Below are positions 1 to 38,879 of a stretch of DNA of 64,000 nucleotides, in pieces. How positions within the stretch are numbered: position 1 is the stretch's first letter; every line of letters begins with the position of its first letter. The position numbers and the translations under genes were made by a program. The DNA is taken from the NCBI GenBank assembly GCA_907165275.2, contig OU015668.1:7311658-7375657 (forward strand), in the 5' to 3' direction. The notes beneath the pieces were generated by a model. That model worked only from the letters and a program-made list of their open reading frames with translations. It did not search any database and was not told the DNA's origin. This DNA comes from Zygaena filipendulae (taxonomy: Eukaryota > Arthropoda > Insecta > Lepidoptera > Zygaenidae).

Positions 1-3000
1 ATCCTCAGTTGCATACGGCAGGGTTGTACCCAGATCATGCAGTACGAGCGGTTCATCGGACAGTAATAGCTTCGATTCTGTCTGAGAATCCGAGCAAACC
101 GGAGGCACTGCTTTCAAGACCACAATTTTGGACCGGAAAGGACCGAATTTATTTCGGTGGTTCTTATTCAACAGTTGCATTCTAAAATACGCAGATTCAA
201 TGACAGTACGCATGTATTGATAAGAGTTGTTCATTTTACCATGCAACGCTTTTAAACATGTATTCAATTTGTCGTCCCAAGTCCTCGCTTTCAGCAGATC
301 TGCTCCCATCGTATCAGATTTGTTTCCAACGATTAATTGGTAGATGTGTTCTAACAGAGAATCCTGCAACCTTTCTGATCCCAAATCACCGAGATGAGAC
401 GTTAAAGACGAGTGAATATCTTCAGGGGTACCGCCTACACAGTAGACAGTGCCAGTTTTACCTGAAACAAAAATATTGTGAGAAAGTTATACACACACCA
501 TATTGACGTGAATACGTCTTTAAAGACGTTTTTTTTGACTTGCCCCTTGAAGTCAAAAAAATTAATGATTACCAATTTGGAGGATACAGTTTGATGTTGC
601 AGCTTCATATCTATCATCTCCATCCTAAATTCAATTACACCATTGGATAACTAAAAGACAAAATAATTCATTACACCAAGTGAGGAGTGTGACGCATCGA
701 GTAGGGTGGAGTGGAAAGTGCCGCCTTTTTGAGGTCATTTTGCTGCGTATCGAGATTCCCATTTAGTTAACTTTAGTTAACTTTTAACTCGAAAAAGTTA
801 CGACGACGTTCGTTTCGGTTTCAATAGTGAGCTCTCGTCAAAATCTCTACGAGCGTAGCGTAGCGATAATTAAGCCCAACCCTAGCCTAGCCCTACGTAA
901 AGGCCCCGCGACTCGCGGGCACGAGTCGTTGCGAGCGGATGATCAAGAGGCTACTCATTATTCCAACACCACATGGCTGGTTATTTTTCATTAAAATTCA
1001 AAATTAATCTCGAATAATATAATATTTATCTAGGTAGGTAGATACATATTTCACGTCGGCGTTATTGTTTTGTTTCTTTTCTTCGAATCTTTCACGCTGC
1101 ATAAAACAACCACGCTGTGATTATATTTTATTTTATAGCAATTAAATGTATAGATGTAATCATAACCAATTAAATTAAACATCTATACCTAACATAAAAT
1201 AACTGGGCGACCGAACTTCGCTCGTAGCGCCATCTGTTGTTAAATAGAAAAGCAGTACCAAACACTCATTTTTCATTGCCTGAAAACACGGATAAAACTA
1301 AGTTTTCTAAAAATGAAACCTAGCTTGATGGATTAGTTGCTAGCCTCCGAAATCCCCTACATACTAAATTTCATGAGAGTAGTTGGATCCATTTCCGAGA
1401 TTCCGATTATATTTATACTATAGGTATACTAGCTGCTCCCGCGGTTTCACCCGCGGTGATTTCGGAGTTCCCGTGGGGATTACGGAATAGAAACTACGCT
1501 ATATACTCTACTCTGTATCCCTGACAACGGGTATGAAAAAATTCATGATGATCCTTTGAACCGTTGAGGCGTGAAGCGTAACAAACAAACAAACCAACAA
1601 ACAAACAAACTCACTTTCACTTTTATAATAGCAAGGATATACAATATACAAGATGCTCATTTAAAGATATGTAGTAAATTACCAAAGGAAGCTGTTTAGG
1701 TACTAACTGTTTAGCCACCAGAATCAACATTCGGTACTGACACGAAACAGGGGATACGCAAAAAATAAAATGACCCTTATTTCGTGAGTCGATGTATTGC
1801 AATTTTAAAGGACTTCTATGTTTATAGATACATGTACACTTTTTTATTTCAAATCAATTTTATTGTTAAGGAACCCCAAAAATCACTACCTATTAAAAGT
1901 TGCATTCAAATGGACTTATCTTTGTCTGTCCAACAAACCATATGTTATGCAAAAATACTTTTGGTTATGAAATAAACAATTTTGAATTTTGAATTTAATT
2001 TTAATTTTAATTTCTATAAGCTTAGCAAGTAGGAGCGAGCACGCGCGACGCGGAGTTGCAACACAGCTGTTTGTGGTCGACTTACTGTAGTTACAAGTGT
2101 CATATTGCTCAGAGTTTAGTCGCTAAAATGTTGATAGGTACTTGATTTTTTAGGGAGATTAGAGCATAGGTAGAGATTTTTTACTGATACATTTTTAAAT
2201 GAAAAATATTCAAATTGCTTATTTTTGCGCTACAAACAAAACTAACGAAATAGCGTACTATAACCAACCAGGAGCCCGTTAGGTACCTTACTTACTGATA
2301 CAGAGGTCTGTTAATCTTATGAACCTAACTTTACACCCACGATCCGATTCACTATAACCACACCTTTCTCTATGACTATAACCATTAAAAAGCAGCATAC
2401 CTAAAAAATTTACACAGCAACTCGGCTTAATAAATTTTTTTATGGCAACAGTAAATTAGAATAATATTAAAAGGTTCGTTTTGGCGGAGGACTACCGTGC
2501 CTCCAGATTTACATTAAATTACATAAGATTCTTGTGTTGCACTAGTTTTATTTTCATTCTTACCATAACCCTCCAGTATATGCGACATCTCCAAAGCCAA
2601 CAACACGCCAGATTCGTAACCCAATAAGTAGAAGTTATTTTTATCCTTCAGTTTTCTCTTCATAACCTGGGAAAAAAACGAACACTACTTAGTTCTACAT
2701 TCTTATATGAATATTATTAGGTAATTTTTTTTTTGTTTTTACACCCCTTACAAAGCTTTAATAGTTGAGGCCAAAAAGATATTTTAAGTACCTATTAAAG
2801 GAGGTTGAGGCAACAAGATTTTTTTACTAATAATTATAATATTATAATATAGCTGCTGTTTCACCCGCCGTAATTTCGAAGTTTGGGATAAAAGTACCCT
2901 ATGTCACTCAGGACTACCGTAGGTAGGACTTCCTATAATCGGTTCAGTAGATCTAGTGATTACCAACCCCTTACAACATCACAAACCCACAATTCACAGA

Positions 3001-5164
3001 CTCACAAACTTTAAATAATATTTGTATAGACATCGACATATACTTTATTTGGCATCAAAATCAAAATACCTTAAATAGAAAAAAAATACAAGTATAGATT
3101 TACGTTCACAAGCCGCTGAGCCACCTCTCTCAAGGTTTCGTCCGGCCGGTTCACTTCGGGAAACAACATGACTGCGGGCAACTTCAACCGTTCACAGAGC
3201 GCTTTGAACCTATTGCGATGCCCCTCCATGCCAGGCACTATGCACAGATAGGTCTCACACGTGTTGTATTCATCGCCACGCTGCAAATAAAGATATACAA
3301 ATCAACTGGAAGATCATCATACTCTACTAAGTACTAAGTAGAGTATTACTTGTTTTACGATACCCTTGTCTTGTTCCTGCGATTTTAAATTTTCCAAAAG
3401 AAACTACATATTTGAGATACAAAAAGGAAAAAAAAAGGAAATCCTCAAGAAAATCATAATTTTTTTGTACCAACCTATGTATATTATTTTAGATGCTGTT
3501 CCCCGTGGTTTCACCCGCGTTAATTTTGGAGTTCCTGCGGGAATTCTGGGATAAAAGTAGGTACCCGATGTACAGTGTTCTGTACACCTGAGAACGAGTA
3601 TGTAAAAATGCTTTATGTCGTGTTTAATCTTCGTTATTATTATAATCAATTAAACTACATGCACCGGTTGCATTAAACCATTAATTCCCAAAGGTAATAA
3701 TAAAAGCATATTTATTGGTTTTTTTGTTTACTAGCCGTTCCCCGCGGTTTCACCCGCGTAAGTTTCGGAGATCTCGCGGGTATTCCGAGATAAAAGTACC
3801 TACTTATTACCCTATATTTTTTTTCTGTACCTACCTATACCAGTGGCAAAGAAGCCTTTCTATTTCAAAATGCAAACAATTTAAGTGGAGAAAAAAAATT
3901 CTCAAAATAAAATGCGATGTACAATAAGTCCAGAACAGTATTTTCTCCCAGACCTAAATAATTTCTAGCGCCTTTAATATTCACAGATAACCATTTAAAC
4001 TAGGTACACAAACACCATAATTAATTTGAATCCAAATCTTACACGCTTTCCTTTGATGAACATCTTACAACCATAACGTCCAAAATACCGCACCATTTCT
4101 TCATCAATTGACAAGTCGTGTGAAAATATTTCAAATTGCATATTTTTTTGGTTTATTATACCCTCAGAAGAATAACTAAAGCTTTAGTTATTCTTGTGAG
4201 ATTATACCTATTGAAAATAGGACGCAATTGAGCGAATTCATAATTTCGATCCAGGTCAACATTATCACATAAATGAATATTTTCCTTTATAGAGTCGAAT
4301 TTGTAAACTCATACAAATTGTTACAACTGATAGATACATTTGTATCTTCACTTTTTGACAATAATTTCGCAGCAGGCAAAGAATGATATCCAGTCAGTAA
4401 TAATATACCAATAAATCTTTTGAGTTCTGCTACCGTGAGGATAAATAAATGACGGTTATGGTCACAAGTATATTTTTTTGAAAGACCAACAATCTGTCCC
4501 CAAAATTCATCACAAAAAAATAGGGAAAATACTTCAAAAGGTGTTTTTACACCTACTCATTCAATATTCTGTGTCATTGCTGTTTCGTCACTTGTAGGGA
4601 AATGTTCTTTTTTCCAGTCTCGAACACATTTGGTGACTTCTTCGGCACCTTGGTCTTGGCTTTTTGGAAGTCGAAGGACCGGGCTCACCTTGGGTGTTTT
4701 CATGCTTTGCGAGTAAATCGGTGCGGATTTCGTACGTTCCAACGATATCAGTGGGTACAGTGTTGTCGTAATCACCGAGCGCATCATCATCTAGGTCTCC
4801 CTCGTCTGTAAGATTGTCAACCGACGGGGGGATGTGCACGGCATCGATTTGATTGGCATCTTCTAAATCCTTTTCCTCTTCTTACTCAGAATTTCTTGAG
4901 AAGATATTGCTCGTTGTCAAGCCATGATGTTTCAACTTTTTCGATCGATCGATGCCATATTTTTATGTGCTATTTGCAAGAAACTTTGCCAAATATCAAT
5001 GACTCACCTGTTTAGAACGATGCAGCAGTGTCGGAATGTGTATCGTGTCAGCCGTAGCGTCCAATTCCTCTTGGTCAAACATAGAGTTCGTTAAATATCC
5101 CTGAAATCCTGAGGATTTCTTTTGTAAAATTATATCGACATTTTTATAGTGTAATTTTTTCAGC
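1..5164 (-). CDS. Gene A exons 36-39: thioesterase (TE) domain, catalytic Ser replaced
   Basis: Exon 36 (KLKKLHYKNVDIILQKKSSG...IHIPTLLHRSKQ) is the ACP-TE linker. Exon 37 matches the alpha/beta-hydrolase start (TYLCIVPGMEGHRNRFKALC). Exon 38 has LLGYESGVLLALEM, where the family elbow is GYSFGA or GYSYGA: the Ser position is Glu2115 and a Ser sits one residue later, off register. Exon 39 starts KTGTVYCVGGTPEDI; the family Asp (F-DGSP) is Gly2141. No GDHR-type His motif is visible near the end. The window edge cuts exon 39 at a codon boundary; gene B suggests about 45 more residues. Chain release by hydrolysis is not expected. Confidence 0.84.
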
Positions 5165-8100
5165 CTGAAAGAAAGTTGTGTGTAACACAGATAAGTGCAT
5201 AACTTAACGTAGGTGCAACCTATAGATGCTTTTTTTCATTTACTATGGACCAATAGATAAACATGTAAAGGTGGCATACTTAATCAAAATAATAATAATT
5301 ACAGGGCGTCCCAAGGATATGACACATGGAGGGAAAGTACCTTGAATATTGTAGATGGAACATTTTACTAAAAGAAGACATTATTTTAATTAAAAAATAA
5401 TTTAAACTGCATTCATAGATATTTAGATAATTACATGATTGAACTAAGAATCGAACCCGTTACATGAGAAAAATAATCACCCTGTAGCTTTATCATACCA
5501 ATCGAAAGGCTTTAGCATAGTGTCAAAAATAAAAGGAAGACCATGAATTATAACATTTTTAATACAAATTTTCAGTTGTATGTCCTTGCGGCAATGTCAG
5601 CTTTTCATTTTTCTGAACAAAATTTCACATCAAATGTTAAAATTCATGGTCTTCCTTTTCGTGTGAATTCCGAAACTCTGCGAGTGAAATCATGGGGCAC
5701 AGTTAATAAAATGCAACGTAATAATTAGGCGTACATAGGTACCTATATATACCTATATTAAATTTATTAAAAGAATACTCACACAGTACCTAAGTGGAAA
5801 ACCGATGTAAAAAAAACATATACATAGGTACAGCCGAAAATAGAACTTCTTCCTTTTTTGAAATCGGTTTAAAAGGAAAAGGGGCATACTCAAACTCAAT
5901 GAAAAAATATTTACTTAGCAATCGACAGCTGTGGCAAACATTGCTTGGGAAGATCCAATTTGAATTTTGTATTCAGAAGCCAATATAGTTCCTGTACACG
6001 TTCATCAGTCAGACCCAACATCTCGAGGGTAAGGCTCTCAGGAGTGCTACTGCTGATGTTTAACCCTGTATTTAACACCATTTTGTGAATTACAAATACC
6101 TGTACTTCATTTGCCTGACAATTTGTATAATTCGTCCTTTAACAATCAGCGCAGCGTCCTTAGTTTTTCACAATGTTGCTTTTATATATTTCGAAAATAC
6201 TTATAATATCATTGATTTCGAAGCATTGCCATATGCTACGTACCTCTGTTAGATTGAAACTGTGACCACGACAAATTCAAATTTATTTATTTATTTATTT
6301 ATTAATTCAGACACAAAACAAGTTACAGTCAATATTTGATACTTAGTTATACAGTCGTTTTTTAAAGCTCTAGGCTGCAACTCAAGACTCATGTCCACAG
6401 CGATTTTGAAGTGTACAAATGAGATACTAAGCTAAAATTAAGAATTATAGCAACTGTAATTGCTATAATTCCCAATTTCAGCCAATTAAAACTAGATTAA
6501 AATATGGGTTAAGACAATATAAAAAAAAAAAAGGAAGCACTTTAAACATTAATAAGAAAAGAAACTAAGAAATTTATAAATTTATACACTAGATGGAGCA
6601 CATGCCTTGAGACATTTAACGGTGAAGCGCTTAAATTTAGAAAAGTTTGAGTCATATATATCGAAGTGATCACGCATCTCAAGCCAATCATCTGCTCCGT
6701 CATCCCCGCCCGCATCCGCCTCGTTAGTAATTTTATTTAGTTTAAAAGTTAGGTCATTACACAATCGCCTCATTCTCACTACAGGATTGAAAAAGGAAGT
6801 ATTATTCTTGTATACTTGTAGAGTGAAAGTAAGGAGTAAACGTCGAGGATTGTACTTAATGTTAAAACTGACCTTGGTATTTTCAATTATTGAATTCAAA
6901 TATTATTATAATATTATGAATTCAAATATTGCTGAATTCTTGTAAACGATACTAATTGTGAACGGAAAAATTACGAAAATAGCTTGCAAGATGTTAATAT
7001 CTGATATTATAATTTTATAATTCGACCTTTGTTAGAACAACAGCAGTCAGATTGAGAATGTGCGCACGAGGTGATAGAGGTGCGTAAGTATGGAGGTCCA
7101 AAGGACAAGTGCGGGTGCATAGACACCGCCTACCCTGCTTCCCGGAGGCAGGTAACATAGGTTAGACTTGTATTACACTATTAGTAACAAGTGACGGGAT
7201 TACCTGGTATTTTTGCAATTTCTTCGATTAAATTATTTTTCACGAAGACTTTTTTGAATGAAGACACCACAGTTTTTTTGCTGTTTAGAGCTCTTTCAAG
7301 CAAATCTAGGGCACTATGTGTTTCTAGATATTGATCAGACGGTAATTCATTAACTTTTTCTGAACCTACAAACTAAAAAAAAGGAAACATTTAAATCTTA
7401 ACTCAGATTAAGTTTATGTTTTATGTGATTTTCAATAATAAAATATTTTACTGTATCTTAAACAAAATATTGCGGCATACTTTTTTTAAGTTATTCAAAC
7501 TTATCGATAAAGCAGGTAAACCAGATTTGGCACGTTGAACACATATTTCACGACCAAAGTTTGAACCATCACTGATCATCACGAAGTTCCTGTCAAGAAA
7601 TATAATATTATAATAACTGTAAATAATATATATAACATAATATTATAAAAATTAATAAGTAATGATCTTTATATTGAATTGCACTCACTTTAATGAACTA
7701 CAAATTTTTCTAGAAGTTATATCCAAAAAGTCCATTGCTGAATTGAGTTTGATTTTATATTCATCTTGAATATCGTCAGTAGCAGTTCGCACCACAAATA
7801 TTGCACGCACCGGTCCTATGTCGTTGCTTTTATTCAGAAAAACGTGAATTTTTTCTTTCTCATCCAAATTGCCATCAAGGATTTTTACTTGAACGCCATG
7901 TTGTTCCCATAATCTAGGGAAGTTAAAGAGGATAAATGAAAATTCCTTATCGTAGTATAGTAGCAGTATTCGTTGTGGTAGTCTAGCGGGAGAACTCTCA
8001 CTCTATTTAAAGGTCGGTTTTTTAAATCAGACTTGTTAAACCTACCTCCGGGTCTACAGATGCGCAATCAAGCCGGTTTAAAACCTTTGCTTAGGGTTTA

Positions 8101-26501: not shown

Positions 26502-26540
<39 letters not shown>

Positions 26541-29500
26541 CATTTATTTGCTGAACATGGTGTACAGGATGTTACATAGAAATTCGAGGCGCATATTCGC
26601 TGTATTGGCATGCAAATTTTTTCCACTATAAAGTAATATTATAATATAGACGTTACTCATTTAAAAATTTTTAGTGCCTGTACTACTTTCTAGTTGAGAA
26701 TCAGTCGACTAGCACCTAACGGTGAATTCCGACAGCCTCACTTGAAAGCCATTTCCCATTCTAAGGTGTGTTTACATTGTTCGACTACACCATTACATAA
26801 CATCAAGTGACCTGCCAGCATAAATGGCATATAATTTTTACAAGAATATGAAGACCAACTTACAGTATATACCATAACCCCGCGCTATATGGTTAGCAAC
26901 AGGCAATTTGTGGAAACTATGAAGAATAGCAATCTCCTCTGGATCTATACGACGAGACTTTAAGTCATTAATTATCTTTTTCACTGAATCTTCCCTTCGA
27001 CCCGAAGCTGTCACTAAATATGGTAAGTCGCAGGCGTAGCGTTCAATATTCTTAAAAAGTCATACAAAAACATTAATTAAACAATTATTTCTTGGAAATT
27101 AATAAGCCATAATATTCCACTTTTTCTTTCTGTCTAATATGTCATGCTCAATGCTCATGTTATTAAGAGGTCACCTGAGCCTGGTTCTGTAAATAGGTAT
27201 ATATACTCACTTTTAATGAGCGGCTACATTTTTAGCACAATTTTGTTACCTTTGGTTTGAATTGTCCCTGAAGAAGCACATGCCCATTGACTCCAGTAAA
27301 TGAGAACTGATTCAAAGCTGCGTAAGAACGCTGGAATGGCTGATGGTCGGTGACAATGCGCATCCTACCCTCACGAAGACCAGTGACGTCATCACGAGGA
27401 GTACTACAGTTTAAGTTAGCTGCTATTTGTCCTCTATGGTATGCTAAAAGAACCTACACAAAGAAAACAAGTCAATACCAACTGTCCTCTGTGTAACTGT
27501 AACTTCTGGGTTCCCACGAGAATTTATGATGTTTATCATGAAATTCTCTAAATTACGAAATTAGTTTTATACGCATAAATCTTCCTCTTTTAATCATTCT
27601 ATATTTGGTGAAAACCGCATGAAAGTCTGTTCTGTAGTCTTTGAGTTTATCGCAACAGACAGACGAACAGACGCGGCGGAGAATTTTGTTTTATCTCTGT
27701 CCCTTTCTTAAAGAGTACAAAAGCAGCAAAAGTTGCTAAGCAATATAGGTGTCCACATAGTACTACATAATTATCAAAGTATTCATAATCATCTATACAA
27801 TGACACATTTCTGATTTTATGAGCAGGTACTCAATGCTCCATGTTTCAATTACAACTGCTCACACACAATGTCAAATATTTCGCAGCCGGCAGCAAACAG
27901 ATTTTTTTTGGGTTTGTAGTATCTGAATACATAGCGTGCTCATATATACTTATCTGCTTTTGACTGTACCAAACTCTTTAAGTTAGTAAATATAGATAAC
28001 ACAAGTCCAACTTACCTTGATAAGGGCGGACAATCCACAAGCGCCTTCAGTGTATCCGATGTTTGACATAACACTACCAACTAGAAGAGCTTTCGTTCGC
28101 TTATCGCAAAATATTTCATCTATTGCTTCCAGTTCCGATTTATCGCTCCCAGGAATTGCTAAAACACATCTTGTATTAAAATGCATAATAGGAATAGGTG
28201 CTTAAACGCTAAAAGAAACATTTTAGGTAATAGAGTCGTTATTTTATTCATTGGTGGGGAAAGATGGTAGGTCATTTAATCAATTTTTGATCTACAATCG
28301 ACAAGATCGTACCCGGGCAAAGTTCTTGTAAAAATGGATTCTAAGAAATCAAACTAAGCATAATTAATGTTTATGATGTTTATTTAAAAGTTTTTACTAA
28401 TAAGGTGTCCCAGGGGGGGGGGGGGGGGCTCATTGTCCATAAAATAGCCTGGCATCTTTGAGGCATGCTTTCTATAATTTTTTCCGTGTAGTCGCAGGAC
28501 AATGACCTCCATATTTCTTTTTTATGAGACCTCAGCTCGGCGGCGGTGTGGGTATTTTCCCCTCGCAAATTTAGCTTCATCAGTGCCCAAACATGTTCTG
28601 TGGGGTTTGGGTATGGTAACCAATCCAATACATTGATGTGATTTTGAGCTTTCCATGCGGTGGATAGACGAATATGAAGTTTACACCATAACTCATAGAA
28701 TTGATGTGAAACCTCCCTGACGGAATATTACTATGATACAATCAACAACTGCACAGAGAAAAAAAATTCCTATCGTTTTTCGGAAAAGTAAAAAAAATCC
28801 ATAAATTACTGTACTTTTCAGTGATTCATTTGGAGAGCGATTTTCAATAAAACGTAGATAATAATTTTAACCCAACCTTTTCTATTATAAAATTCAACTC
28901 TTCGAGCACCTCTAAGTAAAAAATGCTTGTGATGAATATTACCTGCACCAAATCCTTCCACATATTCTACAAGAGAAGGAGAAAGTTTCGCTTCGTTATA
29001 GAATTCATTTAAAAAATTGACCGTGCAAGTGACGTCACGACCAGGACCAAATTTCTGCCAAAAATTTTCTCCAGCTCCAAAACCCGTCTTCACGTGACGT
29101 AATGACGCATAGATTCTGTTGGTTAAGATATGATAAGATAAACTTTATTCAGAAGGAACAATTACTAAACTAACTAAAACAAAACAAAACTTTATTCGGA
29201 AAAAGAGTTTTCCTCTTTAATGTTTTCTCTAAAATTACCCTTACCTTTTGGCATCTTTGCGTTTTTGAAGGTAAATAACATTGACAGCTTCAGATTCTGA
29301 CTGTCCATCTGCGTTCATGTCATAACACTTTGTTTTCCCATCACGATTGACTGGTATTATTCTTGAAAAAATTAAACCAAAACATTTTAGAATGGGCATG
29401 ATGATGTGACGTCCTTTGAGGCTCAAAGTTTTAATTTTTATTACAAATAAAATTATAAATGATGTTTATTTGGCGTATTATCCTACTAATATTATAAATG

Positions 29501-32500
29501 TGAAAGTGTGGATCTTTGGATGTTTGGATGTTTAAATGTTTGGATGTTTGGATTTTTGGATGTTTGTTACTCAATCACGCAAAAACGATTGAACGGATTT
29601 TGATGAAATTTGGCATGCACGTTTTCAGGGGTACAGAAAAGGACAAAGGGTACTTTTTATCCCAAAATTCCCGCGGGAACTCTGAAATTACCATGGGTGA
29701 AACCGCGGGGCACAGCTAGTAAAATAATACGCTTATAAAATTAGGTTAAAAATATATTAAGAAGCATTGCTGGTAAATATACCCACAATCTATTTTTTGT
29801 GTGTTTGTTGGTGTATACTGTATAACTCATAAACTAAAATAAATAACATGGAAGTTTACATGAACTAAAATGTTAATATTAAGGAGTACTAAGCTTGTGC
29901 TTAGTTTCGATATACCTATCGAAAATTTCGACCAAATCCTCCAACCCGTGCATCTCCTACAGCATTAAAGTCACCAGAAATGACTTACCTCTGGAAAGTA
30001 ATGTATGTTTGTGGATGCAGCAAAACCTTTGAACCGCCTACAATGGCAGAATCGCAATCACCATGAAACATTGCCTGGTAAGCTTTCTCTAGTGCCACGA
30101 TGGAGCTGCAGCAAGCACTGTCGACCACTATGGAGGGACCAATCACATTCAACCAGTAGGATATACGATTGGCGCACATAGCTCGACTGCATCTGTTGGT
30201 TGATTAATGAAAGAACAATGAGATTTCTGTCGTCAAAACACATTAGTACTACTGGGTTACAGTCGGCAGTATCTAAAACATTAGTGGTTGATTAGAGCGG
30301 GGTTTTGATTTTATTGTGTAAAGTAAATAAAGTACTGCAGGGAAAAGCTAAGCGGATAGCAATTCACGAATAAGTCTATTAAATTAAGTGAGGTGTGACA
30401 GACAGCACAGCGGCTCGAGTACCCCGGTAATGTACTCAATTTGATTTAATAATTTGGTTGAGCAGATTCACAGTTCTAAATTAATATTACGTATTGAGAC
30501 TAACGGCCGCACTCAGAGTCGACTTTAATAATTACTTAGTTAAGTATAGATTTTTAAAACAAAATTTCCGTAATCAGAGACGTTCAGTAAATTAATGTTA
30601 ATTGGAATTTAATGAGATGTAACTTAATTAGTTAAATTCCAACTAACACTAATTTATTAAACTTGTCTGATTGCGGCAGTTTTGTTTTAAATATCTATAC
30701 TTAACTAAGTAATCATTAAAGTCGACTCTGAGTGCGGCGGTAGGACGTCAGCTGTCGGAATTAAATTTAAATTAACCCGGAAACTAGCCTATATATTTTA
30801 TTTCACTTTTTTATAATTATAAAATTTATACAACTCTAAAATATTTTTTAAGTACATACATGAGACAGTCTTTACCTCTTTATATCTATATATATAACGT
30901 GTTAATGAATTAACTGTAAATCTGCTACAATCTATTTAAAAAATAAACAAAAATATGATTCAAATATATTTTATGTCAAAAAATTAATACTTTGAAAGTT
31001 ATTCAACATTTGTTTGGAGGTGACCTATCTACGAAATTCCAAGCGCTACGCCCGCACCTATCGGTTCTAATTTTTGTGCTGCGGGCGGCGTACGCGCCAA
31101 ATATTGTATTATAAATAATTTAGATATGGGCTAATAAAAGTGAAAACAATATAACCTATATTAAAACATTTATGTATTTATTTTATAGTTAATTAAAACG
31201 GTAAAAGCAACATAGTGCGATCGATTCGCTAGTTGATTCTGAGCAAACTACTTTCTAGTTTTTTCATTAACACGATGTATATAATATTATATATTGTATT
31301 TATTTTACATTAATTCTACTATAGATTTTATTCAAATACATACATATTAACTAAATATATTTTTATAGCGGGTGGCTGATGGAAATATTTTTGGTATTGT
31401 AAAATCTTCGTTAACTTACCCCAGCATTCCTAGTTTGTCAAAATTGCCGCCGGAGTTGTACGCAGCAGATATTATCATTTTTTCCGTTTCAGAGTGGCTC
31501 GGGGCGATGAAAACACCCACTCGTTTGTTTGAAAGTTCAGTCGGGTTCATTCCTAAATAAATAATAATAATAAACTGAAGATCACACACTTGATTCGTTA
31601 CGTGTCTAGTAAGGGATGAATCCAGTATCTTTTTTTATTATTCTTTCGTTATTTTCGGTAGTAAAAATAGACGGAAGCTACCTCGACACGCCTTCAAGCG
31701 ATCCAACCGCAGTTTCATCGCGGTTGGCTGCCATTGCGGTCAGCCGCTATGCCGCCGCTGCCGCTTCGTAAAGGGGCTAACAAACTGACAACAATACTTT
31801 AATTTAATAATTTATTGCTCTAAAAATCCCTAAAAATTGTCCTTGTCCCTAAAAATCAATAATTTTAATAATTACTCACATTTCTTTCTTTCTTTTCTTA
31901 CGTTTTATATTTAAATTTTGAAATGTATTTTAAACATAAAAATAACTAAAAGGAGATTTCAACAAAGGTAAATACATCCCTACTATCCCTACTAATATTA
32001 TAAATGCGAAAGTAACTCTGTTTGTCTGTCTGTCTGTCTTTCTGTTGCGCTTTCACGCCTTAACGGCTCAACCGTCCATCACGAAATTGCATATACGTTG
32101 TCAGGGGTACAGCAAAGGACATAGGGTACTTTCATCCTGGACTTCCTGCAGGAACTCCGAAATTAACGCGGGTGAAACCGCGGGGAACAGCTAGTAAAAA
32201 ATATAACAAAACACTAAAAATGTTTTGAAAATTGACACTGGTGTACCGATGGATAAATGCCCCTTAAGGACATTTGTACCTCAAAAAATCAGGGCAACTA
32301 TCCTTTTTGATAGAGATATAGATGCCCAAGTATTTTTTTAAGTAAATTAAAAAAGAGCAATTATTTACATCTAGATAAAAATTATAACGGAATTTATTAC
32401 TACTTATAAAGTTATACATCGGCAAATGCTAGATAACCTTTAAATTTTTGACGTGTTCGTCAAGTTTGCTGCGGAGATAATTAGTCACACGAGCGCAACA

Positions 32501-34390
32501 CACCCTCAACAAAAACCCGTTGGCAACTGAGGTGAGGTGAGGCGTGACTGCGGCGCCTACCTACCTAAAGACGCGAGTTTGAGAAGTAAGGTTTTTGAAT
32601 TAAGGCATCTATCCCACTGTCGCATCTATCCCCGTTTCACCTAGTCGTATAATTGATAAGATTACTACATATAGCGTGCATGTACGTTTTTTCATGAACA
32701 GGGAATATTTTCTTCATAATATTCTTTAAATTTTCGTGGCGATCCATTGCCACCTTGCTCCTAGAGCATTCCTTTCTCGCATTCCTAGAGCTACTCAGTA
32801 GAACGAACGTTAAAAGTTTATTTTTACAAACTAACCTGCATCGAATAAAGCTTGGTAAGACTGCTCAAGCAGCAGCCGAGTCATAGGATCGAAAACGTTG
32901 GCCAGTCTGCTATGGATCGCAAAAGGCTCTGCGTCAAAGAGGTCTATATCGGGGATGTTCCCTGCGTACTCCGACAGCTCTGGGTGTTCGTAATTCCATC
33001 GAGAATTCTCTTTGGTCACCATGTTTACCTGGTCATAGAAAAGGAGAAGTTGAAATTTTTAAGCAGACGTCAATTAAAATTAGTTGACGACTCCTTTAAA
33101 GTTTGACAAAGCTTTCGACAAGTCTAACTTAAAATTATTTTGCGACACTTTAAGTTTCATTGTGAAAAAACCGGCCAAGTGCGAGTCGGACTCGTGCACG
33201 AAGGTTTCCGTACCATTATCTATAAAAACGGCAAAAAGTCACGGTTATTGTATGGGAGCCCTTTTAAATATTTATTTTATTCTATTTTTCACTATTTGTT
33301 GTTATAACTATCATGGTTGATGAGATACAGCTTTGTGACAGTCGGACAAACAGACAGACGGACAGACGGACCGCGGAGTCTTAGTAGGTAATAGGGTCCT
33401 GTTTTGCCCTCTGGGTACGGAACCCCAACAAAAAAATCTCGTATAAAGATTAGTATCTTAGAGTCTTGTCTGCCAGTCAGTTTTCACACTACTTAAATAC
33501 ATATACATCTATACATATAAAATGCTTTGTCCTGAATGACTGATGGATCAACGCACAGCCTAAACCGCTGATCGTAGAGACCTGAAATTTGGAGGGTGTG
33601 TTCTTTGTATGATGGAGGTATCCGGTAAAAAAGGATTTTTGAAAATTCAACCCCTAAGATGATGAGAAGGGGTTGCAAAGTTTATATGGAACAATTCCAT
33701 GGGAACTTCGAAATCATCGCGGGTGCAACCGCGCAAAACAGCTAGTATATATATATATATATATAGTATATAACGTGGTAATGAATTAACTGAAAACCTG
33801 ATTTAAAAAAATACTCAATAATATGATTAAAATATATTTTATGTCGAAAAAATTTATACTTTAAAAGTTATTCAACATTAGTTTGGAGGTGACCTATCTA
33901 CGAAATTCCAACGCTACGCCTGCGCCTACCGGTTCGATTTTTTTTTGCTTTATTAATATTGTATTATAAATAATTTAGACATGGGCTAATAAAAATGAAA
34001 AAATATAACCTATATTAAAACATAGTGCGATCGATTCGCTAGCTGATTCTGAGAAAACTACTTTCTAGTTTTCAGTTAATTCATTAACACGTTGTATAAT
34101 CACTTAGTATTTTCGTTGCTGTTATAACTTCTAAATTTGAAAAGTCCAACAGTGAGGTCATAATGAGGAGAGTTAAGGACTGTTAGGAAAATCCATACCA
34201 AGTTAAACAAGTTGTAACGAAGCAACATAACTTGTTAAGTTACCTTGTTATAAAGCTTTTCGTCGAACTCCATCACGTTGTGGCAATCGGGCAAAAGCCC
34301 GGACATGCCGCTGATGACGATGTCGTTGTCATCATACGCGGCGCTGTCCGCATCCACGTGCGAGCCGCAGTCTTCAGGGAGTGGTGCCAT
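1..34390 (-). CDS. Fatty acid synthase-like gene A (39 coding exons, 3' end off the left edge)
   Basis: Multidomain type I FAS homologue. Exons 5' to 3': 34390-34244, 33028-32836, 31552-31420, 30192-29989, 29361-29245, 29115-28943, 28158-28016, 27453-27250, 27050-26864, 25544-25391, 24236-24067, 23790-23639, 22203-22020, 21894-21746, 21067-20883, 19947-19828, 19388-19279, 19155-18965, 18872-18727, 18644-18390, 18298-18181, 18060-17812, 17702-17286, 14934-14767, 14680-14568, 14488-14338, 14269-14098, 10950-10838, 10748-10584, 10114-9945, 9745-9596, 7913-7689, 7589-7481, 7372-7204, 6065-5915, 5164-5008, 3280-3104, 2666-2564, 461-1. Every junction keeps frame and the sum is 6,855 nt (2,285 codons); insect FAS proteins are about 2,400 residues. 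The ATG at 34390 precedes MAPLPEDCG and the KS start DDNDIVISG. An AG at 34410-34411 (CGAACAG before GCTCATT) suggests a 5'UTR intron. No frameshift or stop was seen. Several active sites are lost (see domain entries), so normal FAS activity is not expected. Confidence 0.88.
462..2563 (-). other. Gene A intron 38
   Basis: A 2.1-kb intron homologous to 48471-51072 in gene B. It contains a minus-strand Helitron-like element (1429-1637) and otherwise unique AT-rich sequence; a short CG-rich stretch at about 840-940 (CGACTCGCGGGCACGAGTCG inverted repeat) is kept in B near 48900. Confidence 0.7.
1429..1637 (-). mobile_element. Non-autonomous Helitron-like element (intron 38, A)
   Basis: Read on the minus strand it begins A|TCCTTGCTATTATAAAAGTG and ends with the CGCGG...CCGCG hairpin (loop GTGAAA) followed by GAGCAGCTAG|T. 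These are the Helitron hallmarks: 5' TC, 3' hairpin about 10 nt before CTAG, and insertion between A and T without target duplication. A (CAAA)n run lies at 1581-1610. The corresponding part of gene B (49.3-49.5 kb) lacks it. Confidence 0.7.
2852..3000 (-). mobile_element. Degenerate Helitron-like fragment
   Basis: Contains the minus-strand 3' end in mutated form (plus: tagctgctgtttcaccc...gtaatttcgaag) followed by the family's 'gggataaaagtaccctatgtc' body. No clean 5' end. Lies in intron 37 of gene A. Confidence 0.5.
3484..3610 (-). mobile_element. Old Helitron-like fragment shared by A and B
   Basis: Plus strand reads gctgttccccgtggtttcac and continues with the family body to about 3605. 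The same fragment is at 51729-51845 in gene B with the same right boundary (aaaaatgctttatgtcgtgt), so it predates the duplication. Confidence 0.6.
3732..3830 (-). mobile_element. Truncated Helitron-like 3' end
   Basis: Begins on the plus strand with A|ctagccgttccccgcggttt, the reverse of the family 3' terminus, with the hairpin intact. Only about 100 bases are recognisable. Not found at the homologous place in gene B. Confidence 0.55.
3980..4890 (-). mobile_element. piggyBac-like transposase relic in intron 36 of gene A
   Basis: Conceptual minus-strand translation in several frames recovers piggyBac transposase pieces in order: acidic N-terminal part DAVHIPPSVDNLTDEGDLDD (about 4860-4770), HNRHLFILTVAELKRFIGIL and LTGYHSLPAAKLLSKSED (about 4480-4340), and IFSHDLSIDEEMVRYFGRYG with MFIKGKRVRFGF (about 4150-4030). 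The IDEEM-F-GR motif is a piggyBac hallmark. Frameshifts and a stop break it and the C-terminal half is absent. The same intron in gene B (51516-51970) is only about 455 bases and has no trace of it. TTAA-flanked ends could not be placed with certainty. Confidence 0.75.
5531..5659. repeat. Foldback (hairpin) repeat in intron 35 of gene A
   Basis: Left arm aaaaggaagaccatgaatta at 5531 is matched in inverse by aattcatggtcttcctttt ending at 5659, giving arms of about 25 bases around a loop of about 70. It lies in a roughly 520-base block (5270-5840) present in A but absent from B intron 35 (208 bases). Transposon identity is not known. Confidence 0.6.
5915..6065 (-). CDS. Gene A exon 35: acyl carrier protein (ACP) domain without its serine
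   Basis: The exon aligns with the FAS ACP helix II region: LTLEMLGLTDERVQELYWLL against the family's L-LGMDSLM-VE--Q-LE, followed by FKLDLPKQCLPQLSIAK. The DSL motif, whose Ser carries 4'-phosphopantetheine, is LTDER here (Asp1955 in the Ser column). No nearby serine can take its place. The donor is AA|GTAAAT at 5914 and the acceptor is CAG at 6066-6068. The gene B exon at 52336-52486 encodes the same residues. Without the prosthetic group an ACP cannot carry intermediates, so the whole FAS cycle should fail. Confidence 0.83.
6283..6935 (-). mobile_element. 5'-truncated LINE insertion in intron 34 of gene A
   Basis: Gene B reads acgacaaattcaaatgttgc straight through at 52694-52713, while A has about 640 extra bases bounded by acaaattcaaa and gaattcaaatattgc, consistent with a target duplication of about 9 bases (aattcaaat). 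The insert ends on the minus strand with an (AATAAAT)n tail at 6283-6303. Its 3'UTR (cagacacaaaacaagttaca...) recurs inverted at 11560-11880 and 56840-57145. The open frame 6899-6582 (ending KACAPSSV) is probably the tail of the element's coding region; I do not recognise it with certainty. Confidence 0.7.
7204..9745 (-). CDS. Gene A exons 31-34: degenerate ketoreductase (KR) domain and linker
   Basis: Exon 31 aligns with the KR start, but the Rossmann signature TGGLGGFG is replaced by LCDDEGFG (residues 1729-1736), then VQLADHLVASGVRKLHVL follows the family. Exon 32 (LWEQHGVQVKILDGN...NDIGPVRAIFVV) matches the WEEQGVKV...LGPVGGIF part. Exon 33 reads FVMISDGSNFGREICVQR where the family has FSSVSCGRGNAGQ-NYG-AN-ICEQR, so about 15 residues including the catalytic Ser/Tyr segment are missing or changed; the only candidate for the Tyr position is Phe. 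Exon 34 (FVGSEKVNELPSDQYLET...) is the linker to ACP. From family knowledge neither NADPH binding nor proton donation should work. The same residues occur in gene B. Confidence 0.85.
8370..8606 (+). mobile_element. Helitron-like element shared by A and B (intron 31)
   Basis: Starts A|TCTATACATATAAAATGC and ends tcgcgggtgaaaccgcgcgg followed by gacagcaa, so the terminal CTAG is mutated. The orthologous copy is 54139-54379 in gene B. Confidence 0.65.
8621..8850 (+). mobile_element. Helitron-like element, first of a tandem pair
   Basis: Begins A|TCTAATATATATAAATCACG and ends with a ccgcggatgaaatcgcgggg hairpin plus gacagCTAG|T. Directly followed by a second copy of the same family. Both are missing from gene B, where the flanks join (gacagcaagtctatatatgt attatataaaa). 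Confidence 0.75.
8851..9037 (+). mobile_element. Helitron-like element, second of a tandem pair
   Basis: Starts TCTAATATATATAAATCACG exactly where the first copy's CTAG ends and finishes with the same hairpin and CTAG|T at 9037. About 43 bases shorter than the first copy through an internal deletion (the 'gaaggacatagagtac' stretch is missing). Confidence 0.75.
9038..9344 (+). mobile_element. Diverged Helitron-like repeat (intron 31)
   Basis: Ends gaaattatcgcagggaacagttag|t, a decayed version of the family end, and shares the body 'acgcacagctgaaaccactgg' with other copies. Also present in gene B at about 54390-54675. In A only, a 23-base piece (ctaagaaagtatttttgaaa...) is duplicated in tandem at about 9155-9200. 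Confidence 0.5.
9945..14680 (-). CDS. Gene A exons 25-30: enoyl reductase (ER) domain
   Basis: A medium-chain dehydrogenase-like ER. Exon 25 VQYVALNVTDTNKAT matches the family start (VYYASLNFRD type). Exon 26 has SGESVMGIVSGG and VPAHWTLEEAATVPLPYAIAFYCL. Exon 27 carries the NADPH loop VHGGAGALGQAVI (residues 1525-1537), which looks intact. Exon 28 has NSRDATF...GKGCNIVISCI, exon 29 aligns with the ER substrate region, and exon 30 (ISQGYVRPLSRVTYPPQDVVRAFQLLAASRHRGRVLIRL) is the C-terminal end. Intron 27 (10951-14097) contains a Gypsy element nested in a MITE. ER activity cannot be excluded from the motifs visible here. Confidence 0.85.
11180..11471. mobile_element. Left part of a MITE interrupted by Gypsy (gene A)
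   Basis: Starts acaacgtgttaatgaattaa, the terminal inverted repeat of the family seen uninterrupted at 30893-31281 and 33769-34097, and runs to aacctatatt-aaaac where the Gypsy LTR begins. The other MITE end (cactaacacgttgtat) is at 14051-14070. Confidence 0.75.
11472..11944 (-). repeat. 3' LTR of the gene A Gypsy remnant, with an inserted LINE tail
   Basis: Plus-strand ends are tgttttaagtgataatcac and gcagtaaacttaca, that is TG...CA on either strand. A roughly 320-base insertion (about 11557-11877) with an (aataaat)n tail splits the LTR; it is the 3'UTR of the same LINE family as 6283-6580. Gene B carries the same split LTR at 56757-57214. The 5-base sequence aaaac at 11467-11471 is the left target duplication. 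Confidence 0.75.
11472..13999 (-). mobile_element. Ty3/Gypsy retrotransposon remnant in intron 27 of gene A
   Basis: Minus-strand pieces: RT/RNase H debris (about 13770-13210), integrase zinc-finger region (13137-12925: LIHQGHPDISKSVKNARQSF), integrase core and C-terminus (12944-12342: VIVDCFSHWLELIPLQSKTS), then a 3' segment (12322-12047). The catalytic-core acidic residues are mutated (VANNNPFL where the family has SDNG-F). A solo 3' LTR follows (11472-11944). Relative to gene B, two internal blocks and the 5' LTR are missing, including gag, protease, the RT start and most of RNase H. Inactive relic. Confidence 0.8.
14767..18298 (-). CDS. Gene A exons 21-24: pseudo-methyltransferase / structural region
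   Basis: Exons at 18298-18181 (CEGLLIQNISF), 18060-17812 (MPSTIYMFLQIVAENLNKN...), 17702-17286 (139 codons, the longest internal exon, INLGVEVVDSPTSLY) and 14934-14767 (VSIFKGVWGGEFFLPL...) correspond by position to the non-catalytic region between DH and ER of animal FAS, where a methyltransferase remnant and the ER entry strand sit. Exons 22-24 are phase 0 at both ends. Exon 24 begins after an AAAAAG acceptor at 14935, a site kept in gene B. The intron between exons 23 and 24 (14935-17285) is filled by a MITE and a locally duplicated repeat absent from gene B. Confidence 0.8.
14955..14995 (+). repeat. tRNA-like SINE head fragment
   Basis: Contains caaactcgccaggtgtcgcg followed by ggtttcattcccgca, which resembles a Pol III B box in a T-arm context. 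The gene B counterpart (63381-63432) also keeps an A-box-like gacctaatgattagc. It sits just upstream of exon 24 in both genes. Short and diverged, so only a tentative call. Confidence 0.35.
15106..15732. mobile_element. MITE with GGTCCGTATTAATA termini (intron 23, A)
   Basis: The left end aggtccgtattaatagtcag and the right end ttattaatacgggcct are inverted repeats, and 'actcaag/cttgag' and 'gatgatctcaag' motifs recur inside. Total about 630 bases. Absent from the corresponding gene B intron (63349-63883). The ends resemble those of the smaller element at 24521-24750. Confidence 0.6.
16011..16852. repeat. Local duplicated block in intron 23 of gene A
   Basis: Two units recur. Unit 1 (cattactcatactcggaaag ... 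gaatcgctttcaactgacag) is at 16014-16110 and 16552-16642. Unit 2 (ctttagctaattcctatttt ... cccctaggataacaatgtac) is at 16389-16539 and 16753-16850, the second copy with an internal deletion. Together they look like an element duplicated around itself. Not present in gene B. Confidence 0.6.
18384..18390 (-). other. Possible GC splice donor of gene A intron 20
   Basis: Exon 21 begins with one base completing a codon followed by TGT GAA GGT. A donor AG|GCACGT at 18390/18389 gives QVYELLNETRCEGLL, which keeps the family spacing (V-Y-...-V-R-C-G-G). The competing GT donor at 18413 (CAGGT|GTATGA) is in frame but deletes eight residues. The intron would be only 91 bases (18299-18389). Confidence 0.5.
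18390..19947 (-). CDS. Gene A exons 16-20: dehydratase (DH) domain
   Basis: Exon 16 carries the pre-DH strand (ALYPKVEFPVS...LSHLVDWVHSS). Exon 17/18 holds the hotdog-fold catalytic motif HxxxGxxxxP as HIIEGSVVFP (His905), followed by MVWDTIA. Exon 20 holds the second catalytic motif DxxxQ as DSVIQ (Asp1050, Gln1054). Both DH catalytic residues are thus present. Exon 19 (VTHKNLLVATGCVLQVER) links the two halves. Exon 20 most likely ends at 18390 with an AG|GCACGT donor; a GT donor at 18413-18412 (exon end 18414) also keeps frame but drops the conserved V-Y...R-C-x-G spacing. In a normal FAS this domain dehydrates the 3-hydroxyacyl-ACP. Confidence 0.84.
19974..20386 (+). mobile_element. Helitron-like element (intron 15 of gene A)
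   Basis: A|TCTATACTATAATAAAAGAG at the 5' end; cgcaggtgaaaccgcgggca then ccagCTAG|T at the 3' end. Length 413, longer than most copies here, with ctgtctgtctatctgttcgc internally, as in 46745-47012. Confidence 0.7.
20883..27050 (-). CDS. Gene A exons 9-15: linker and malonyl/acetyl transferase (MAT)
   Basis: Exon 9 (NIERYACDLPYLVTASGR...) is the KS-MAT linker. Exon 10 starts the MAT fold with RPLWFVYSGMGSQW. Exon 12 has the nucleophile elbow GHSVGE with Ser611, then AAYSRG (the Arg that normally binds the malonyl carboxylate) and IRGSMAAVG. Exon 13 has IAYHSRYI, the catalytic His position. So the MAT triad residues look intact, unlike the KS. Exon 14 (GPGLLKYLKE...WVSTSVPQDRW...SAEYHTNNLL) and exon 15 (SPVLFEETSTLVPANAVLVE) complete the domain; the family junction NNLLSPVLFEE shows that exon 14 ends at 21746 with a GC donor. 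Malonyl or acetyl loading could therefore still occur, but no functional carrier serine exists to accept the group. Confidence 0.88.
21740..21746 (-). other. Probable GC splice donor of gene A intron 14
   Basis: Exon 14 must end in phase 0 after NNLL so that exon 15 (starting AGT CCC GTA CTA, SPVLFEE) continues the family sequence NNLLSPVLFEE. The junction reads TTATTG|GCAAGTGC on the minus strand: a GC donor with an otherwise ideal GCAAGT. No GT donor nearby keeps the frame; using GCAA|GTGCAG would shift exon 15. GC-AG introns are a known minor class. Confidence 0.75.
22251..22449 (-). mobile_element. Helitron-like element (intron 12 of gene A)
   Basis: Minus strand runs A|TCCTACTAATGTTATAAATG to the hairpin (cgcgggtgaaaccacggggc) and acagCTAG|T. 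Compact 199-base copy, close to the 29481 and 31986 elements. Confidence 0.72.
22688..22929. mobile_element. Long-inverted-repeat MITE (intron 12 of gene A)
   Basis: The left arm starts tttctttgctttattggata and extends about 90 bases to gacttggccagtttt; the right arm (aaaactggaaaagtcaaatc ... tatccaataaagcaaagaaa) is its imperfect reverse complement. The spacer between arms is about 60 bases, AT-rich. A transcript would form a long hairpin. No flanking duplication could be fixed. Confidence 0.7.
24237..25390 (-). other. Gene A intron 10, mostly repeat
   Basis: About 24290-25150 is an interspersed repeat (ggcacggtagtgcccctgcc ... gtttccttaggtcctagaaagc). An inverted, shorter relative is at 49900-50240 in intron 38 of gene B. 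A MITE (24521-24750) is nested in it. A CT-rich run with ccccccctccc is at about 25268. Confidence 0.6.
24521..24750. mobile_element. 230-base MITE with 22-base terminal inverted repeats
   Basis: Left end gggtccttattcactatgac is the inverse of the right end ggtcatagtgaataagggcc. The related repeat near 50000 lacks it: there 'atctaaaaaacc' joins directly to 'ctgatttcgtcactgac' (read on the minus strand), giving an approximate empty site. Termini resemble those of 15106-15732. Confidence 0.65.
25890..26265 (+). mobile_element. RTE-type LINE 3'-end relic (intron 9 of gene A)
   Basis: Plus-strand translation, with stops, recovers FKTKVFDYRMLLVMTYGTET, RRRTKVTDIARRIANFKWKW and GAHR..., matching the RT C-terminal part of the LINE at 42722-43717 (KTKVYNQCVLPVMTYGAETW; RRRTRVTDIALQNSKLKWQW). 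Heavily mutated. Confidence 0.65.
26504..26536. repeat. Homopolymer T33
   Basis: A run of 33 T, followed by aattcatttatttgctgaac. On the minus strand this is a poly(A) tail after that sequence, suggesting a retroposed copy of unknown family in intron 9. Length is prone to sequencing error. Confidence 0.6.
27250..34390 (-). CDS. Gene A exons 1-8: ketoacyl synthase (KS) domain, histidines lost
   Basis: Residues 1-438. The KS condenses acyl and malonyl groups through a Cys-His-His triad. Landmarks: ISGMSGLLP near the start, VFDPMTRLLLE (exon 2), GCSRAMCANRISYWLNVIGP then VVDSACCSS (exon 4, Cys185 in the DTACSS position), FTGVNGHVLLQ (exon 8). The usual EAHGTGT reads EGFGAA (Phe320 for His) and the usual KSNMGH reads MSNIGY (Met353 for Lys, Tyr358 for His). 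Exon 6 ends at 28943 with donor GCAG|GTAATA and exon 7 starts after TTTTAG at 28159, so these residues lie in firmly framed exons. From family knowledge, loss of both histidines should abolish decarboxylation and condensation. Introns 1-7 hold Helitrons, MITEs and a Tc1 relic. Confidence 0.88.
28380..28700 (-). mobile_element. Tc1-like transposase C-terminal relic (intron 6 of gene A)
   Basis: Minus-strand open frame 28628-28380 reads MDWLPYPNPTEHVWALMKLN then ELRSHKKEIWRSLSCDYTEK and IIESMPQRCQAIL, the C-terminal end of a Tc1/mariner transposase around the third catalytic acid (P-PNPTEH, family PDLNPIEH). The N-terminal two thirds are missing. A run of 16 G interrupts the tail. Confidence 0.75.
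28413..28428. repeat. Homopolymer G16
   Basis: Sixteen consecutive G within the Tc1 relic. Unusual in this AT-rich region; could be a replication-slippage product or an assembly artefact. Confidence 0.6.
29481..29719 (+). mobile_element. Helitron-like element (intron 4 of gene A)
   Basis: A|TCCTACTAATATTATAAATG at the start, gggtgaaaccgcggggcaca gCTAG|T at the end. The body has a (GGATGTTT)n variable stretch at about 29515-29570. Confidence 0.75.
30506..30740. mobile_element. Long-inverted-repeat MITE (intron 3 of gene A)
   Basis: Left end ggccgcactcagagtcgact and right end agtcgactctgagtgcggcg form the tips of arms of about 100 bases (also attacttagttaagtatag / ctatacttaactaagtaat and cattagaatttaatta-like inner parts). 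Total about 235 bases, so almost the whole unit is palindromic. Confidence 0.72.
30893..31281. mobile_element. MITE with ACAACGTGTTAATGAATTAA-type termini, copy 1
   Basis: Left ataacgtgttaatgaattaa; right end cattaacacgatgtatat. The core (gtttggaggtgacctatcta ... ccaagcgctacgcccgcac) is shared with 33769-34097, 11180-11471 and 56467-56756. Intron 3 of gene A. Confidence 0.7.
31986..32194 (+). mobile_element. Helitron-like element (intron 2 of gene A)
   Basis: A|TCCCTACTAATATTATAAAT at the 5' end, a (TGTC)n stretch at 32023-32042, and cgcgggtgaaaccgcgggga acagCTAG|T at the 3' end. Confidence 0.75.
33165..33432 (+). repeat. Interspersed repeat, unidentified family
   Basis: aaaaccggccaagtgcgagt ... 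cggactcgtgcacgaaggtttccgtacc at the left and ctctgggtacggaaccccaa at the right, with (GACA)n at 33345-33368. The inverted 'ggttccgtacc/ggtacggaacc' pair near the ends suggests a foldback element. A fragment (ggtacggaaccctaaa) recurs at 49109. Intron 1 of gene A. Confidence 0.55.
33508..33745 (+). mobile_element. Helitron-like element (intron 1 of gene A)
   Basis: A|TCTATACATATAAAATGCTT start and gcgggtgcaaccgcgcaaaa cagCTAG|T end; same subfamily as 8370-8606 and 54139-54379. Followed by an (AT)n run at 33746-33766. Confidence 0.72.
33769..34097. mobile_element. MITE with ACAACGTGTTAATGAATTAA-type termini, copy 2
   Basis: Left ataacgtggtaatgaattaa ctgaaaac and right gttttcagttaattcattaacacgttgtat are inverted repeats of about 28 bases. 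This copy shows the uninterrupted sequence aacctatattaaaacatagt gcgatcg that is the empty site for the Gypsy insertions in genes A and B. Confidence 0.75.
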
Positions 34391-38574: not shown

Positions 38575-38879
38575 CTCTATTGTCTTATCCTTGTCTTGTC
38601 CATGTATAATATTATTAAGTTAAGCTAAATTTTGTTTAACTCACCGTTTACAGCTTGTATAGAACCCCTAACCGTATCTTGCGAAACACCTAAAAGGTCT
38701 TGTAAGCAGACAACACGACGAATCGACTGAAAGGACTGTATGCATAACAGATGAAGTAACACGTTTTATTATAGCTAAAGAGCATGACCCAAAAACCTTA
38801 ATACACACAAATTCATGCATAATAATTACCTACGTATGTGTCTACATACGTAGGTAATAAATAAAAAAATAAGTTAGTA

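Follow-up and report, generated by a model that had tools for sequence, protein, structure and literature searches.

The stretch of DNA analysed here (the window) comprises 64,000 nucleotides of the moth Zygaena filipendulae (assembly GCA_907165275.2; contig OU015668.1, here C19, positions 7311658-7375657). On its minus strand lie a gene resembling animal type I fatty acid synthase (FAS), termed copy A, and the 3′ part of a near-twin, copy B. A profile built from 53 homologues was aligned to the contig with splicing, and with frameshifts permitted at a penalty. The resulting model of copy A (17..34390) has 39 exons running from an ATG at 34388-34390 down to position 17, with 0 frameshifts and 0 stops, in agreement (start coordinate included) with an initial annotation that had joined 39 exons from the letters of the window. 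Two of its introns have GC donors. The last coding exon is cut by the window start: C19:7306658-7311657 is a run of exactly 5000 N whose last N adjoins window base 1. The open frame continues up to this run, and therefore the last ~45 residues of the protein (judged by copy B) are unreadable. Two extra 'exons' placed by the aligner outside the window were taken as spurious, because the 5000-base N run borders the window start.

The resemblance of copy A to FAS is not due to chance, as its best match in the PDB has E = 1.8e-249 (obtained with a draft of A joined by hand). Aligned with solved and insect FASs, the protein shows the domain order KS-MAT-DH-psiME/psiKR-ER-KR-ACP-TE, as in animal type I FAS. 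The part of copy B within the window (47884..64000, minus strand) extends from psiME/psiKR to TE, with the remainder beyond the window on C19 up to 7413470. When the next 38 kb of the contig were added, copy B proved complete, with no stop and no frameshift, and ended at a stop codon after ...NAAANADNL. Its model has 40 exons, of which one 2-base piece was taken as an aligner artefact.

Catalytic columns were chosen by motif with Bombyx p270 (P0146) as reference; the domain spans given below, all on the minus strand, were set by motif and include introns, and residue names such as H293, R606 and S2308 follow human FAS numbering. In the KS region of copy A (27277..34330; spliced model and residue check) the active-site Cys is kept (amino acid 185; 30111-30113), while the His293 position is Phe (28950-28952), the His331 position is Tyr (28052-28054) and the Lys326 position is Met, giving a catalytic set of C-F-Y compared with C-H-H in functional FASN. 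The initial annotation had called this domain inactivated; both catalytic histidines are indeed lost, but the nucleophile is still present. The MAT region (20945..25485; residues and Pfam Acyl_transf_1) is complete, retaining Ser (23783-23785), Arg (23708-23710) and His (22042-22044) plus Gln, and it aligns over nearly its whole length with 2jfd, a structure of FAS MAT (362 bits; Ser, Arg and His conserved). The DH region (18298..20944; residue check) keeps His (19289-19291), Asp (18557-18559) and Gln. The ER region (9745..14829), one intron of which holds Ty3-like retroelement frames (~12.0-13.6 kb), keeps GxGxxG near 14219 and has two other conserved positions altered (K to R, D to S).

Residue checks of the distal domains revealed further losses. 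In KR (7241..9744) the GGLGG motif is gone (9706-9708), the catalytic Lys and Ser positions are substituted and the Tyr segment is deleted. In ACP (5161..7240) the position of the phosphopantetheine Ser is Asp (6004-6006). In TE (17..5160) GYSxG has become GYESG, with Glu for Ser (2613-2615), Gly for Asp (433-435) and Leu for His. Thus the KS, KR, ACP and TE domains of copy A lack residues needed for their standard chemistry. Copy B has the same losses, including the ACP Ser position (52425-52427, minus strand) and the TE Glu (51122-51124, minus strand); its TE matched the PDB weakly (E 0.67). Pfam scores followed the same lines: the acyl transferase domain (Acyl_transf_1) of copy A scored 251 bits compared with 266 for Bombyx p270, and KS 183 compared with 248. 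The KR and PP-binding models found no match in copy A at E 0.001, where p270 scores 141 and 37 bits, and the TE and ER of copy A scored below cut-off.

Copy A belongs to a large group of lepidopteran proteins. The best 120 of 921 protein matches to the draft of A were all lepidopteran by name, many of them labelled 'fatty acid synthase' or 'fatty acid synthase-like'. A family set (n = 120) was assembled from 117 of these best 120 together with A, B and a paralogue on contig C15 of the same genome. A comparator set (n = 120) consisted of 118 of the best 120 of 7621 matches to the p270 orthologue, plus two genes of this genome on contigs C9 and C19 (the latter C19p). Counting a gap as incomplete, the catalytic set of MAT was complete in 120/120 family members, that of KS in 0/120, KR in 0/120 and TE in 2/120 (both Plutella), and the ACP Ser was aligned in only 16/120, although a residue was present at that site in 115. 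The DH set was complete in 82/120 and the ER GxGxxG in 109/120. Among the 120 comparators the corresponding numbers were 113 for KS, 114 for KR, 108 for TE, 115 for ACP, 112 for DH, 115 for ER and 71 for MAT. Within the family KS the Cys was kept in 104/120, the first His in 2/120 and the second His in 1/120. The absence of essential residues from KR, ACP and TE, proposed initially for copy A, therefore holds in A and in its relatives. The retention of MAT and DH residues likewise holds for A and, for MAT, throughout the family, while DH is less secure. Because independent species show these losses too, sequence error was rejected as the cause of the lost motifs.

Five proteins of over 2600 amino acids (P0001, P0051, P0092, P0184 and P0200) were excluded from the alignment. 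By motif, P0001, P0051 and P0092 keep GHSVGE, in P0184 the motif reads GHSLGE and in P0200 it is absent; the MAT His motif of P0001 was found only in the second half of the protein. P0001 (Spodoptera exigua, 3889 amino acids), the top match, contains two GHSVGE and two LGYEFG sites and so most probably merges two neighbouring family members in a single annotation. A search with the Plutella protein P0114 yielded only Lepidoptera by name among the best 120 of 1780 matches, with no caddisfly member among the matches listed. It added 11 more family members (P0241-P0251), which lie outside the alignment; 11/11 keep GHS[VL]GE and the [AP][YF]HSxY site in a motif check.

Phylogenetic analysis, with P0197 and P0234 dropped from the first tree for gaps, recovered the 120 family members as monophyletic with support 1.0 whether the MAT and linker columns were in or out; the family set had been picked by similarity to A. 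The sister of the family was the p270 clade, caddisfly sequences included (join support 0.934 and 0.978), a placement that long branches could affect. Copy A is not the orthologue of p270, as the p270 orthologue of this genome lies at C19 2.19-2.23 Mb. Bombyx p270 (O01678, P0146) and its lepidopteran orthologues, C19p among them, share with copy A the domain order and an intact MAT and form the sister clade; however, p270 keeps the KS, KR, ACP and TE residues that A has lost. Identical exon lengths occurring in the same order as in A numbered 16 for C19p, 18 for the C15 gene and 1 for the C9 gene, so A and p270 very likely descend from an ancestor with that intron layout.

Conservation across the family is concentrated in MAT. 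Invariant columns were defined as those at least 97% identical across 38 p270-type FASs and another 31 drawn mostly from other insect orders, and a column was scored as retained when at least 90% of 88 full-length family members had the same residue. By this measure the family retains 73/75 invariant columns in MAT, compared with 89/197 in KS, 10/20 in the linker, 27/79 in DH, 4/37 in psiME/psiKR, 35/99 in ER, 0/87 in KR, 1/34 in ACP and 13/27 in TE. Mean pairwise identity (up to 1500 random pairs) was 0.785 in MAT and 0.30-0.64 elsewhere. MAT is the most conserved domain across the family.

Selection was estimated from copies A and B. The ratio of nonsynonymous to synonymous substitution rates (dN/dS) was 0.32 (bootstrap 0.26-0.40); a value near 1, named beforehand as evidence to the contrary, was thus not what this one gene pair gave. 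By domain the ratio was 0.16 in MAT, 0.44 in KS, 0.60 in the linker, 0.31 in DH, 0.43 in psiME and 0.38 in TE, and MAT lay below the pooled KS, linker, DH, psiME and TE (0.39; permutation p = 0.001). ER (0.09), KR (0.09) and ACP (0.29) stood outside this pool, their values resting on few changes and a low dS (0.02-0.07). In the tract from ER to ACP (A, 5.9-14.9 kb; B, 52.3-63.4 kb), five of seven stretches are 95-97% identical, introns included, and two of seven are 90% identical. Nearly all other stretches of A and B are 81-92% identical, apart from two exon-sized ones at 96-97%. This pattern suggests that the ER-to-ACP part was recently exchanged or converted between the copies.

Transposon remnants, named by eye, occur in and between the copies. 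Ty3-like gag/pol frames lie in the same intron of A (window 12.0-13.6 kb) and B (57.2-62.1 kb), and hence their insertion likely predates the A-B duplication. Between the copies are regions resembling the reverse transcriptase of long interspersed nuclear elements, at 35907-38619 (minus strand) and 40490-43718 (plus strand).

To place the two copies in their genome (366 Mb, 56 contigs), searches were performed with KS exons; these score the best candidates only and count exons rather than whole genes, so their numbers are lower bounds. The first gave 13 matches, all stop-free, of which 10 lie on C19 between 7.34 and 7.77 Mb (0.43 Mb) and the other three at C19:2.22 Mb, C15:10.12 Mb and C9:12.84 Mb. 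A second search with an intact KS exon as query returned the same thirteen and one weak match on C4. In the gene at C19 2.19-2.23 Mb (C19p) the KS and MAT residues are intact and the KR glycine motif is present; C9 holds a second FAS in which KS and MAT are likewise intact. Both models end within KR, with ACP and TE beyond the part read. The C15 gene is an older inactive paralogue. On one tree it falls outside the other 119 members and on the other it lies, along with the two Plutella proteins, outside the other 117; its model ends short of TE and had one stop in a badly modelled 5′ part, which was trimmed before alignment. Within the array on C19, copy L004 has Phe at the first KS histidine, as in A. 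Copy L042 (C19:7633001-7643000) has two KS exons and no further exon within 8 kb, which may reflect a long intron or truncation.

These data bear on whether the array consists of decaying pseudogenes or has arisen as an assembly artefact. In favour of this are the clustering of the copies, the recent origin of A and B, the transposon fragments found within and between copies, and the lack of a next exon in the 8 kb after the two KS exons of L042; moreover, the full reading covers A and B alone. Opposed to this are 39 exons without a stop or frameshift in A and B, a dN/dS of 0.32 with an upper bound of 0.40, the same losses in many lepidopteran genera, and ten of ten open KS exons. For A and B decay is rejected on the grounds of frame, dN/dS and clade-wide conservation, in keeping with the initial annotation, and for the array as a whole we consider this explanation extremely improbable. 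The proposal that copy A encodes a selected protein of FAS fold lacking FAS activity is likewise upheld by the intact frame, the A-B ratio and an inactivated layout common to a 120-member clade.

What such a protein might do is constrained by the distribution of conservation. Initial suggestions had been lipid binding, storage or a partner subunit, the last of which is possible. In a lipid-binding, storage or structural protein of this fold, the Glu-Gly-Leu that replaces the TE triad in 97/120 family members could form a binding pocket; it looks more uniform than drift would give and suggests a kept new role. However, no signal specific to binding or storage was found, none having been sought specifically, and the constraint on MAT is left unexplained, making this reading very improbable. 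Alternatively, the protein could be a non-catalytic regulator that dimerises with an ordinary FAS and lowers or redirects its output as a dominant-negative subunit. In animal FAS the KS, DH and ER regions form the dimer; these regions are retained in the family, and the KS ratio of 0.44 between A and B is compatible with such a role. Nevertheless, a regulator leaves unexplained why four MAT active-site residues are present in 120/120 members and why 73/75 old invariant MAT columns persist, and we judge it improbable.

The completeness and constraint of MAT are consistent with the partial acyl-transfer role that had been raised as another option, which is now favoured. We consider it likely, from intact residues and domain conservation, that the family consists of acyl or malonyl transferases in which only MAT is active and is under selection. 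In the reaction envisaged, the MAT Ser would take a malonyl or other acyl group from CoA, as the intact residues and constraint suggest. The usual condensation and reduction would not follow, because the KS, KR and ACP residues are lost. Since A, B and most members carry an ACP with no phosphopantetheine Ser, the acyl group would instead pass in trans to an acceptor. A KS-competent, p270-type FAS may, as a conjecture, offer its ACP as this acceptor within a heterodimer or complex formed through the retained KS/DH/ER scaffold. A partner FAS as acceptor is possible, though we hold to it tentatively. The reading as a whole, a lepidopteran pseudo-synthase acting as an acyl/malonyl-CoA transferase in trans, possibly on a partner FAS, is in our view moderately probable.

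A reciprocal class of FASs lends weight to this proposal. Among the comparators, 43/120 have a substituted MAT Ser, Arg or His, and in 21 it is the Ser itself. Allowing for gaps, 43/43 keep the KS Cys/His/His, KR Lys/Ser/Tyr, ACP Ser and TE Ser/Asp/His. They form 11 clades in which all members have lost MAT on the full tree and 12 on a tree without MAT columns, two of these lying outside Lepidoptera and Trichoptera. Most of the MAT-altered sequences from moths, butterflies and one caddisfly retain the MAT region with active-site substitutions, and some are without parts of MAT. The 21 losses of the MAT Ser come from ten species: Vanessa atalanta, Vanessa cardui, Galleria, Achroia, Aphomia, Spodoptera frugiperda, Parnassius mnemosyne, Pectinophora, Eumeta and the caddisfly Arctopsyche. 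In eight of these species, family members are likewise present among the best 120 of 921 matches; Eumeta and Arctopsyche have none listed there. In the 21 Ser-substituted FASs conservation was 0.55 in MAT compared with 0.69 in KS, 0.60 in DH, 0.65 in ER, 0.73 in KR and 0.68 in ACP; TE (0.44) and psiME/psiKR (0.545) were conserved even less than MAT. In Arctopsyche grandis, P0192, P0193 and P0196 have Gly for the MAT Ser and keep the KS, ACP and TE residues, and two other FASs are intact. Were a complementary source of MAT available, the recurrent loss of MAT in FASs would be explained.

Several observations weigh against this interpretation. The lowest A-B ratios belong to ER and KR rather than MAT. 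The other inactivated domains also lie below 1 (the interval of the linker extends beyond it), so MAT need not be the sole reason for selection, and the estimate comes from the single pair A-B. The ER motif in 109 members and the DH set in 82 leave a reductase or dehydratase role possible, and an Asp-Ser pair occurs in 7 of the 16 members whose ACP Ser is aligned. On the side of the partner, the MAT-less comparators are automated protein models and 3/43 of the MAT-altered sequences come from other insect orders. Because the caddisfly with MAT-altered FASs also possesses two in which MAT is intact, this activity could come from an ordinary FAS. Finally, the KS-exon searches of the Zygaena genome, among their best candidates, revealed no MAT-less FAS, and both KS-competent FASs (C19p and C9) keep MAT.

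That last result, together with MAT complete in every member and an ACP Ser in few, also suits an acyl-CoA transferase or hydrolase that works alone, with a protein cysteine, CoA, a carnitine-like small molecule or water as acceptor rather than a FAS ACP, the remainder of the protein being a carrier fold. The KS Cys kept in 104/120 members could still accept an acyl group, and a 1997 paper, by its title, ascribes to the Bombyx FAS homologues p260/270 an ability to transfer palmitate onto peptides (cited in PMC3230841). However, with its catalytic residues in place and its position in the sister clade, p270 is not one of these proteins; the palmitate-transfer report therefore does not describe this family and was set aside as a direct precedent, and p260 was not located. 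Moreover, a multi-domain scaffold of 2300 residues needs a further reason if it serves an activity of 300 residues. We regard a stand-alone enzyme as rather unlikely and prefer transfer in trans, possibly to a partner FAS. In sum, the initial observation on this locus is confirmed and its interpretation is partly supported.

In bacterial trans-AT systems the acyltransferase is a separate small protein. Trans-AT polyketide synthases resemble the system proposed here in that the acyltransferase acts in trans and that a non-elongating KS0 without its His lies beside an ACP without GxDS (PMC6855096); they differ in being bacterial, whereas in copy A the acyltransferase sits inside a full FAS scaffold. 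Mixed dimers with truncated chains are described for mouse-type FAS (PMC6173736), and Rangan, Joshi and Smith (2001; cited in PMC6173736) used complementation between mutants to map how animal FAS is functionally arranged.

Among insects the closest described proteins are the 'aberrant' FASs of cluster III in Finck 2016, where PP (ACP) is lost, DH/ER/KR/TE are modified and KS and MAT are unmodified, with expansions in Lepidoptera among others (PMC5039406). Copy A is alike at the level of domains: ACP is lost, DH/ER/KR/TE are modified and the KS and MAT domains are retained. It differs in that Finck 2016 scored domains (PMC5039406), whereas the residues analyzed here show that the catalytic histidines of KS are lost too. 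In the text of that paper no word beginning with 'heterodimer' or 'dimer' and no two-subunit reading was seen (PMC5039406). RNA interference against Tribolium TC000238, of the aberrant type, reportedly caused 100% mortality after larval injection (PMC5039406). The same source describes cluster II FASs of Orthoptera, Coleoptera and Diptera that lack MAT and are otherwise regular, reports mortality of 60% and 40% after RNA interference against Tribolium TC15337, of this MAT-less type, and calls it unclear whether MAT-less transcripts encode functional proteins (PMC5039406). In contrast to cluster II, the lepidopteran and caddisfly MAT-altered FASs mostly keep the MAT region with a substituted active site. 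Other papers report 11 genes counted as FAS in S. frugiperda (PMC9783692), FAS-like expansions in Busseola and Antheraea (PMC6697066, PMC5774507), and homologues of p260 and p270 that are strongly up in virus-infected Heliothis haemocytes (PMC3230841).

A literature search, with most subscription journals outside it, found no report of MAT-only lepidopteran FASs, of KS loss at the level of residues, of reciprocal MAT loss by residue or of complementation between MAT-less and MAT-only FASs. The existence of 'aberrant' insect FASs is already known (PMC5039406); the residue-level MAT-only pattern and its reciprocal appear unreported in the literature searched. The finding would count as a new category only once the two-subunit reading had been demonstrated.

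Despite the fatty acid synthase label that many of them carry, 0/117 aligned database matches have a complete KS set and only 2 a complete TE set. Genome studies that list these genes among FASs, or tie them to pheromone supply, may be counting proteins unable to make fatty acid. If MAT acts in trans, animal FAS would gain a subunit logic for which, to our knowledge, bacterial trans-AT systems are the sole precedent, and the repeated loss of MAT among the sister FASs would be accounted for. A bolder and more doubtful extension is that Lepidoptera have split FAS into MAT-only and MAT-less subunits that assemble into a hetero-dimeric trans-MAT FAS. The choice of MAT-only subunit, as might be drawn from the cluster of ten KS exons, would then alter which building blocks are used. 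If so, exchange of the MAT-only subunit might serve the production of methyl-branched or odd lipids for cuticle or pheromone.

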